A stretch of DNA of 64,000 nucleotides from Rhodomicrobium sp. (GTDB lineage Bacteria > Pseudomonadota > Alphaproteobacteria > Rhizobiales > HXMU1428-3), in contig BQJK01000004.1 in the NCBI GenBank assembly GCA_021604665.1, positions 62,001 through 126,000 of the forward strand, given 5' to 3'. Under the pieces are notes generated by a model that was not told the origin of the DNA, made no database searches, and saw only the letters and a program-made list of their open reading frames with translations. Shown piece by piece: positions 44,294 to 47,821 of this stretch. Position numbers and translations under genes: made by a program. The stretch's first letter is position 1; every line of letters starts with the position of its first letter.

Positions 44294-44893
44294 ATGAACA
44301 ACGCAATATCAAATAAGACCAGAGAGACAATCCGCAATAAGAGCAACCGGCAAAGCTCTCTGTCAGCCAGCGCCCTAAGCTTTTCATTGTGGCAGGTCTG
44401 CATATTCCTCCTCGCCTTTAGCGTCTTTGCCGCAATTCCCAACAACTCCCACGCCAAAGCAGAATCCTTCAAAGTTCGTAAAACTCATGGCCATTGGCAT
44501 GTAAGCTGCGGCAAACCCCCCGGGGCCAAAAATGAAAAATGTGCCCTCGTCCAGGATGTAACCGACGAAACCCGCCCCAATTACAGCCTCCGGGTAATTT
44601 TCCTGCGCTCTCGTGATGGCAAAAAAGAAGTCCTCCGCGTTGTAGCTCCCCTGGGTGTGCTACTGCCAACAGGTCTCGGGTTGAAAATTGATGACGCCGA
44701 CATGGGCCATGCCCCCTTCATGAAATGCGGTAAAATCGGCTGCATCGCAGAGGTTGTCGTCACTGATCAAATCGTCAGCAAATTTAAAAGCGGGCGTAAT
44801 GCTGTTTTCATTATATTCCAAACACCGGAAGTCGGCATTGGCTTCCCAGTTTCGCTCAATGGCTTTGGCGCTGGTTACAACACCCTGAAATAA
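44294..44893 (+). CDS. Invasion-associated locus B (IalB) family protein
   Basis: A 199-residue secreted protein. The signal peptide is at about 33-55 after a longer basic start. The mature part shows GHWHVSCGKPPGAKNEKCALVQ, LRVVAPLGVLLPTGLGLKID and CGKIGCIAEVVV, the cysteine and loop pattern of IalB proteins, first named in Bartonella for red-cell entry but common in free-living alphaproteobacteria. Exact role unknown. It is followed by a strong terminator. Confidence 0.85.
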   Translation: MNNAISNKTRETIRNKSNRQSSLSASALSFSLWQVCIFLLAFSVFAAIPNNSHAKAESFKVRKTHGHWHVSCGKPPGAKNEKCALVQDVTDETRPNYSLRVIFLRSRDGKKEVLRVVAPLGVLLPTGLGLKIDDADMGHAPFMKCGKIGCIAEVVVTDQIVSKFKSGRNAVFIIFQTPEVGIGFPVSLNGFGAGYNTLK

Positions 44894-44960
44894 AGCCGCC
44901 CATTTACATAAAAGATGAGCGCTCGTTTCAGCTTAACCAAAAAAAATGAACACAAAAAAA

Positions 44961-44997
44961 CCAGCGGAGTGGACAATCATCCCTCCGCTGGTTTTTT
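44961..44997. terminator. Bidirectional rho-independent terminator
   Basis: CCAGCGGAG (44961-44969) and CTCCGCTGG (44983-44991) form a perfect 9-bp stem with A-run before and T-run after. It lies between the convergent IalB-type and PAN-domain genes and should stop both. Confidence 0.88.
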
Positions 44998-45029: not shown

Positions 45030-46046
45030 CTATCGCCACTCAATTTTGAACTTGCCAAATAGCTTGCACGTCTTCAGCACCAGGTTCCGCTTCTTCGCTT
45101 CACGGCGGCGCGCCTTATCAGAGTTCATCCGGCACCAGTTAACATGGCGCTTATAATTATTATGCCATGTCGTACCATGCAGGTCACAGCCCTTACGGAT
45201 ATTATTGCGAAAATCAGAAATGGCCGCCTCGGCATATTTATGACAAGGGCCAGTCCGCGCTTGTTGTTTGCCTTTCTGACGGAAGCACCGGTTTAACGCT
45301 TTCTGACGCTTATCTTGCCGAGCTTCAGATTCGTCGCGGTCAGCGCGTAAACACCATTGATAGTCAGCCTTTTGGTTCGTGCTCCAAAGCCCATTACCAC
45401 CGGCTCGACAATCAGCTTTCCTGCGAGTCTCACTTTGCACAGCAGCAATTTTTGAGAAATATGAACAATAAGCACGCTTCTCAAAACCAAGTTCGCTTAT
45501 GCAACTATTGATAGCAGATCTCTGCCCTCTGCGTTCTGCACGCAAGGCTTTAGGCCCAAGCTGCATACAACGGCGAAAATGGCGCTTATCATTTGAGTGC
45601 CAAGCCCGGCCACGATAACCACAGTCATTACGAACATTCTGCGTATTTAATTTAATGGCATCCGCCGCCCAGGCACGGCAACGCTTTGCTTGACGGCCGA
45701 GTTTGCCATTATTTTTTACAATTTCTTTTGCTTTTTTATAACCAGATGTGCAGCATCCATTCTTAACGCTACGACCAATCTCATTAAATAACCTGCACTG
45801 CACATTCCCTAATGTGCCAATACGAATAAAGGTCCAGGAGCGACAGCGCTTATCCTTCTGGCATGCTCGCTTGCAGGCCCCTTGCTGGCTCTGTTTCATC
45901 GGAATGCTGCGATAAGGCGCCCCAATATAAATTGTGGTCGGGCTCACTATCATCTCGGCCCGGACTGTACTCACCCCCCCAGCAAACAACAATATAGCCA
46001 CAACACTACTAAATAGCGCCGCAACACCTCCACTAGATAACTTCAT
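45030..46046 (-). CDS. Secreted PAN/Apple-domain protein with three four-cysteine repeats
   Basis: A 338-residue exported protein. Signal peptide at about 8-30. A PAN/Apple-like domain (about 35-105) shows CKRACQKDKRCRSWTF and CRLFNEIG. Then come three tandem repeats of about 72 residues. Each has four cysteines at a strict spacing: 123-142-160-182, 194-213-232-254, 268-287-305-327, i.e. steps of 19, 18 or 19, and 22. Each also has a Trp between cysteines 2 and 3. The repeats are strongly basic and should be disulfide-bonded outside the cytoplasm. Function unknown; PAN domains bind proteins or sugars. Confidence 0.75.
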   Translation of the reverse strand: MKLSSGGVAALFSSVVAILLFAGGVSTVRAEMIVSPTTIYIGAPYRSIPMKQSQQGACKRACQKDKRCRSWTFIRIGTLGNVQCRLFNEIGRSVKNGCCTSGYKKAKEIVKNNGKLGRQAKRCRAWAADAIKLNTQNVRNDCGYRGRAWHSNDKRHFRRCMQLGPKALRAERRGQRSAINSCISELGFEKRAYCSYFSKIAAVQSETRRKADCRAGGNGLWSTNQKADYQWCLRADRDESEARQDKRQKALNRCFRQKGKQQARTGPCHKYAEAAISDFRNNIRKGCDLHGTTWHNNYKRHVNWCRMNSDKARRREAKKRNLVLKTCKLFGKFKIEWR

Positions 46047-46447: not shown

Positions 46448-47821
46448 ATGAGCTCACCCATCCCGCGCGCCAAAAGAAAAAACAACGCCAAATTTCTAAA
46501 TGGCTCGATCATGTCGCACATCATCCGCATGACGCTCACATCAGCCTTTGGCCTGGTTGCAGTCTTCTCCGTAGATTTTATAGATCTGTTTTTTCTCAGT
46601 CAGCTTGAAGATAAAGATATTCAAGCAGCCCTCGGCTTCACAGGCACATTACTCTTCGCCACGATCTCCTTCGGCATTGGCCTCTCAATCGCCTCATCCG
46701 CTGTGGTCTCAAAAGCCGCTGGCGCAAAGGATGTAGAAAAATCCCACCGCCTCACAGTTAATAGCCTGATCTACGCCGCCGCCGCCGCCGCCATCACTGG
46801 CCTCATCTTATTTCTGCTTATAGAACCTTTATTGATACTGCTTGGCGCGGAAGGCCATGTGCTCGACCTCTCAGTCGAATATCTGCAAATTCTTGTACCA
46901 ACCATGCCGCTCTTCGCACTCTCCATCAGCTCAGCAGCCTGCTTGCGCAGCCATAGTGATGCAGTCCAGGCCATGTATGTCACCGTGGCTGGTGGCCTGG
47001 TTAACGCCGCCTTCGATCCCTTATTGATTTTCTGGTTTGAAATGGGAATGAATGGCGCGGCCCTTTCAACAGCTATAGCGAGGGTCGCAATGATGGTTAT
47101 CGGTTTTTATGGCATTTTCCATATACATAAAATCCGTTACCGCCCCAACATCAAAGCCCTGAAAGAAGATTTTAAACCCTATATAACCATTGCCATCCCC
47201 GGCGTATTGACAAATCTTGCAACCCCGGTTGGCAATGGTTACGTCACTTATGCCATCGCCAGCTATGGGAATCCGGCTGTTGCAGCCTGGGGAATTATCG
47301 CCAGAATTGTGCCGCTGGCCTTCTGCGCTATCTTTGCGCTTTCAGGAGCTGTTGGTCCAATTATTGGCCAAAATCTCGGTGGCAGAAAATTCGATCGCGT
47401 TCGCCAAACCCTAACCGATGCGCTTAAATTCAATACCATTTACACGCTTATAATCTGGGCCATTCTAGCCCTTGCCGCCACCTCCATCACCAGTATCATG
47501 CAGGTCAAAGAAGAAACCGGCGAACTGGTCATATTCTTTTGTCGCTGGCTCACCCCGGGCTTTGGGATGATTGGCTTTCTATTTGTCGCCAATGCTGCCT
47601 TTAACAATCTCGGCCGTGCGCATTATTCCAGCTGGTTAAACTGGTCACGCGCCACCATTGGCACCATCCCCTTTGTTCATGCGGGGGCTTATATTGCTGG
47701 GGTGAAAGGGCTTTTAGCCGGTCAAATTATCGGCGGCGCACTCATCGGTCTCTTTAGCGTCTGGCTCAGCCAACGCGCTATTAAAACAGTTACGATTGAA
47801 TATAGCGACGCACAAAAATAA
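46448..47821 (+). CDS. MATE family efflux transporter
   Basis: A 457-residue multidrug or toxin exporter of the MATE family, driven by Na+ or H+. About 12 membrane helices are visible in two halves, starting with MSHIIRMTLTSAFGLVAVFS. VDFIDLFFLSQL and the mirrored VGPIIGQNLGGRKFDRVRQ are MatE-domain hallmarks. Substrate unknown. It is convergent with gshA, 17 bp apart. Confidence 0.88.
   Translation: MSSPIPRAKRKNNAKFLNGSIMSHIIRMTLTSAFGLVAVFSVDFIDLFFLSQLEDKDIQAALGFTGTLLFATISFGIGLSIASSAVVSKAAGAKDVEKSHRLTVNSLIYAAAAAAITGLILFLLIEPLLILLGAEGHVLDLSVEYLQILVPTMPLFALSISSAACLRSHSDAVQAMYVTVAGGLVNAAFDPLLIFWFEMGMNGAALSTAIARVAMMVIGFYGIFHIHKIRYRPNIKALKEDFKPYITIAIPGVLTNLATPVGNGYVTYAIASYGNPAVAAWGIIARIVPLAFCAIFALSGAVGPIIGQNLGGRKFDRVRQTLTDALKFNTIYTLIIWAILALAATSITSIMQVKEETGELVIFFCRWLTPGFGMIGFLFVANAAFNNLGRAHYSSWLNWSRATIGTIPFVHAGAYIAGVKGLLAGQIIGGALIGLFSVWLSQRAIKTVTIEYSDAQK

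Follow-up and report, generated by a model that had tools for sequence, protein, structure and literature searches.

A predicted helical four-cysteine domain of the Hyphomicrobiales, repeated in a PAN protein of Rhodomicrobium

The C-terminal part of a PAN-domain protein encoded in a 64,000-nucleotide stretch of a Rhodomicrobium sp. genome (the whole stretch analysed, hereafter the window) consists of three copies of a predicted helical four-cysteine repeat, which we regard as solidly established as a domain: it is real, spread across the order Hyphomicrobiales and unnamed. With regard to function, we tentatively propose, giving it not quite an even chance, that the PAN domain and the repeats form a basic, multivalent array binding the cell's own envelope or matrix glycan in a lectin-like manner, in the periplasm or at the cell surface. 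The original prediction had described three repeats of four cysteines, with steps of 19, 18 or 19, and 22 residues, behind a PAN/Apple-like domain in a secreted and strongly basic protein, and each of these features was recovered (Table 1). The steps are exactly 19-18-22, 19-19-22 and 19-18-22 in repeats 1, 2 and 3 (Cys123/142/160/182, 194/213/232/254 and 268/287/305/327), with a Trp in each repeat; the N-terminus is signal-peptide-like, and the mature protein has a pI of 10.4 and a net charge of +9 to +14 per segment.

Table 1. Features of the PAN-repeat gene and its surroundings, in window coordinates
Feature	Position	Strand	Basis
PAN and three four-Cys repeats, secreted (signal-like), CDS of 338 aa from ATG	45030..46046	-	ORF call
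Signal-peptide-like N-terminus, residues 1-30, h-region VAALFSSVVAILLFAGG, ending VRA, followed by EM	45957..46046	-	sequence reading
PAN/Apple-like domain, residues ~40-102, six Cys	45741..45929	-	Pfam PAN_4
Repeat 1, residues 123-182	45501..45680	-	profile; AlphaFold2 model
Repeat 2, residues 194-254, with an additional residue ahead of Trp	45285..45467	-	profile
Repeat 3, residues 268-327	45066..45245	-	profile
15-bp perfect inverted repeat with A/T tracts that separates the PAN-repeat gene from its convergent neighbour IalB and resembles a terminator in either direction	44955..44997	.	
IalB family secreted protein, convergent neighbour	44294..44893	+	Pfam IalB E 5e-34
MATE family transporter, divergent neighbour	46448..47821	+	Pfam MatE E 1.5e-40

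A repeat profile from outside the genus scored 140 bits against the window protein, in three full-length domains (i-E 3.2e-15, 1e-10 and 2.4e-18 for repeats 1 to 3), whereas the best of 5000 shuffled versions of the mature protein reached 9.0 bits, so the repeat pattern is not due to chance. Among 107 natural repeats, gathered by a Cys/Trp pattern that tolerated wider step ranges, 80 follow exactly 19-18-22 and 13 follow 19-19-22. The consensus is C-x2-Y-A-x2-A-V-x-Q-x3-N-x4-C-G-F-x-G-x2-W-x6-H-x2-W-C-x10-E-x3-R-x3-L-x2-C. In 154 full-length repeats, columns C1 to C4 hold Cys in 154, 152, 154 and 152 cases, respectively, and Trp27 is found in 149, His34 in 130 (84%) and Arg53 in 128; several apparent cysteine losses are alignment shifts, and one is clear (L043, C2 only). 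Positions between the core residues are highly variable. The net charge is positive in 79-90% of the repeats, averaging +5.7 per repeat for PAN proteins and +4.0 for frames with a single domain, and some members are acidic; basic charge lies outside the core features of the repeat. Since certain single-domain members (e.g. L097) are neutral or acidic, a role based on charge alone would not hold for the whole family. Repeats 1 and 3 share 65% and 67% identity with the repeat in the same position of an ortholog, versus 25-35% with other repeats, which argues for a separate constraint on two of the copies or more; the corresponding value for repeat 2 is only 34%. Two adjacent repeats of L038 are 97% identical, indicating that arrays grew by recent tandem duplication.

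Related repeats without a domain name had been mentioned for Rhizobiales proteins, and they do occur in many Hyphomicrobiales. No profile of Pfam, NCBIfam, PHROGs or PADLOC matched the repeat significantly, hence none of a family of known function in the first three; other libraries (CDD, COG, InterPro members) may hold a name. The PDB sequences, compared by single sequence and by profile, likewise gave no significant match, and the defence library no noteworthy one. Hits to a selenate ABC protein, complement resistance and SO_alpha_A3 (NCBIfam/Pfam, E 0.002-0.1) were rejected, each coming from a single member and far under cut-off. With Foldseek, the single-repeat model had no significant match in the PDB (best E 4.6), which does not in itself prove a new fold, nor among viral models; in VIA, against 21 chains only, the best Z was 4.4. 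A search of the openly accessible literature likewise found no description of the repeat.

The repeats had further been proposed to be independent disulfide-bonded units. In line with independence, AlphaFold2, run on one repeat together with 35 natural repeats, predicts a unit that folds alone (pLDDT 93.8, pTM 0.79) into three helices, A (3-24), B (38-47) and C (50-72), with cysteines at positions 8, 27, 45 and 67, and single repeats exist as secreted proteins of ~100 aa with no other domain (L025, L074, L097, L135 and L143). In the full-length model, built with nine sequences, the repeats mostly reach pLDDT 80-93 and a long continuous helix (H135-180) links repeats 1 and 2; the PAN part is lower and the pTM is 0.35, so the arrangement of the domains is not predicted.

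The repeat cysteines are presumably oxidised as disulfides. The C1-C2 and C3-C4 gaps, estimated from helix lengths at 1.5 A rise per residue, are ~20-28 A, which disfavours sequential pairing. A nested scheme (C1-C4/C2-C3) was first read from the helix ends, and C1-C3/C2-C4 fits the same geometry equally. Covariation among 187 repeats (effective number 157), analysed by mean-field coupling and mutual information, gave t values of 1.7-2.3 for a parallel A-C line versus 0.7-0.9 for an antiparallel one, with part of this weak signal in flank columns; in an earlier set of 154 repeats the two were not separated. The parallel signal points to C1-C3 and C2-C4, a pairing that is weakly favoured over the nested one. 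Co-loss of cysteines, as another test of pairing, is too rare, the C2 loss mentioned above being the single clear case. Structure prediction, originally suggested as the route to the disulfide pairing, gave a three-helix model and spoke against C1-C2/C3-C4.

In the N-terminal part, PAN_4 (PF14295) matches residues 40-75 with E 7.4e-9 (36 bits, gathering cut-off 27), and PAN_1 (PF00024) scores 21.2 bits, slightly under its cut-off of 21.4. All six PAN-part cysteines (Cys58, 62, 68, 84, 98 and 99) are invariant in the alignment of relatives. A helix (22-34 of the mature chain) carrying a CxxxC motif sits between strands in the AlphaFold2 model, and this motif and two partner cysteines in the sheet are present (Cys58, 62, 68 and 84), with putative bonds. 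The prekallikrein apple domain superposes on the PAN model at 1.7 A over 42 columns, but as a weak match (E 6.7, Z 4.0) and limited by the low confidence of the model here (pLDDT mostly 57-73).

A profile search of alphaproteobacteria with the single repeat found it in at least 71 of 397 Hyphomicrobiales genomes and 42 of 141 genera (E down to 2e-23); elsewhere in the class, outside the order, it occurs in about 1% of genomes. At least 6 of 385 genomes match in a class sample, two of the six within the order (G082 and the genome that the window comes from), and at least 5 of 398 in a phylum sample, where all five matches listed belong to the order; these counts are lower bounds, with the best 16 candidates per genome scored. 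With the full protein as query, at least 68 of 297 Hyphomicrobiales genomes gave relatives, part of them through the PAN domain only. A single-protein scan of genome contigs gave no match, and closer alignment yielded nine named loci, in Hyphomicrobiales MAGs (two labelled Methyloligella) and one labelled only Alphaproteobacteria. A single search of viral contigs found no relatives, nor did the searches of plasmids, hence there is no sign of a mobile or phage-borne gene.

The repeat occurs behind a PAN domain in one to eight copies, and on its own as pairs and triples. It was also found after a WSC domain (L026, two repeats, WSC E 2e-19), with PAN and FG-GAP (L081, FG-GAP E 4e-30), within an LCCL protein (L091, LCCL E 3e-13), and in L095 and L096, where PAN and three repeats are followed by an H_lectin-like region and one more repeat; the H-type lectin match of L096 is sub-threshold (17.7 bits, cut-off 24). 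These partners are binding and adhesion-type domains, with no enzyme domain among them. In L039 (7176-9754) the PAN-repeat-H_lectin-like frame, a single open one of ~900 aa in L095/L096, appears split into two overlapping frames, by a frameshift or sequencing error. We also noticed a second unnamed module, Cys-rich and ~70 aa long (GKCPLVRACDC..C.VY.PG....WP.GC..PP...CR), at the C-termini of WSC- and PAN-repeat proteins (L026, L069, L078 and L094; 39-83% identity, BLAST E 5e-6 to 5e-43; no Pfam match). The genome of the window also encodes a paralog (L002, G000:C1:102683-103114) with two repeats and, at its C-terminus, a Cys-rich domain that L086 has as well (29% over 96 aa, E 7e-9; no Pfam match above cut-off).

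Within the genus, the PAN-repeat gene is present in 8 of 8 sampled genomes, the seven other members sampled being 46-51% identical to the window protein, and it is probably under purifying selection (dN/dS 0.04-0.06, at dS of 1.0-1.7, close to saturation). The conserved gene order is rsmE-like, gshA-like, MATE, PAN-repeat, IalB, coxB and coxA, in which the rsmE-like, gshA-like, coxB and coxA genes are what we take them to be from reading their sequences. The PAN-repeat gene stands alone between the divergent MATE and convergent IalB genes; throughout the sampled genus the IalB gene is found next to coxBA and the PAN-repeat gene. Its neighbours include no genes for making or exporting glycan, which counts against a glycan ligand, and a consensus scan for promoters and terminators gave no more matches than shuffles. 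Relatives in other families (L038, L039) lie in different neighbourhoods, which makes gene context a poor guide to function.

Secretion and the domains joined to the repeat both suggest a binding role, at the envelope or in the matrix. PAN and WSC have a common fold and are described as modules for protein-protein and protein-carbohydrate binding, and a three-WSC array binds beta-1,3-glucan (PMC9024836); rhizobial PAN proteins were proposed, without test, to be lectin-like adhesins (PMC4653623). We hypothesize that the protein, vertically inherited and exported to the periplasm or cell surface, would contain three independently folded three-helix modules, each stapled across different helices by two disulfides, which together with PAN would form a stable, basic, multivalent array; most likely it would bind the cell's own glycan (acidic polysaccharide, LPS or peptidoglycan). 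Location, glycan ligand and multivalency are what we infer, the last being favoured by array lengths of 1-8 and the nearly identical L038 neighbours, a recent-expansion pattern of multivalent proteins. Against a glycan, PAN also binds proteins, and glycans are not the only ligands of FG-GAP, LCCL and PAN domains. That the repeat is itself a glycan-binding module of an undescribed, largely Hyphomicrobiales family, used alone, arrayed or fused (PAN, WSC, H_lectin-like) for the envelope or matrix, is possible but doubtful; the polar residues Gln11, Asn15, His34 and Arg53 share helix faces with the cysteines in the model and may be structural instead of a ligand site.

Small multi-Cys helical secreted domains are a usual design of inhibitors, and the protein could instead be an enzyme inhibitor or a protein-binding periplasmic factor, for instance in envelope growth, with the IalB neighbour acting in the same place. 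The protein binding of PAN domains and the conserved position of IalB beside the gene agree with this, as does RgsG, an IalB-domain protein essential for polar growth in Sinorhizobium (PMC7327166). Nevertheless, since IalB is convergent and a terminator-like repeat lies between, the two genes are not co-transcribed, and this, with the other neighbourhoods of L038 and L039, counts against a protein partner, which we rate as unlikely. Ranked after it, and unlikely as well, is a rigid, protease-resistant stalk in which the repeats present PAN with no binding of their own: the continuous helix between repeats 1 and 2, the free variation in repeat number and the wide variability between core residues would suit a stalk, which however leaves the lone secreted repeats (L097, L074, L025 and L143) unexplained and sits poorly with the positional identity retained by repeats 1 and 3, if not by repeat 2. 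A redox or metal site is very improbable, as the four cysteines and conserved His of each repeat, and the nearby cytochrome oxidase genes, are set against cysteines ~19 residues apart on different helices with no CxxC pair, a secreted protein with an oxidised-type PAN domain, and the absence of the cox neighbourhood from relatives outside the genus.

The glycan-binding array remains our preferred reading, with the repeat as a small candidate for binding glycans of the envelope or matrix. Methylotrophs, root-nodule bacteria and numerous aquatic bacteria are among the Hyphomicrobiales, and a compact secreted domain of theirs was missed by the libraries searched; defining it would name proteins that about 30% of sampled genera possess.

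Among known systems, CHCH/twin CX9C domains (PF06747) are similar in outline, being small helical units with two disulfides (predicted for the repeat), but the repeat is C-x18-C-x17-C-x21-C, with three predicted helices, bacterial and secreted; its steps of 19, 18/19 and 22 give no CX9C pairs, and 0 of 48 repeats match PF06747 at E 0.1. With PAN/Apple proteins (PF14295, PF00024) the window protein shares residues 40-102, PAN by Pfam and by cysteine pattern, whereas its three C-terminal repeats are all-helical in prediction, not PAN, and matched no described domain. The WSC profile (PF01822) has no match in the window protein, and the repeat is predicted to be three helices and not the PAN/WSC fold; as in WSC lectins such as SiWsc3, however, the protein is a secreted Cys-rich repeat array, and one relative, L026, carries a WSC domain followed by two of the four-Cys repeats.
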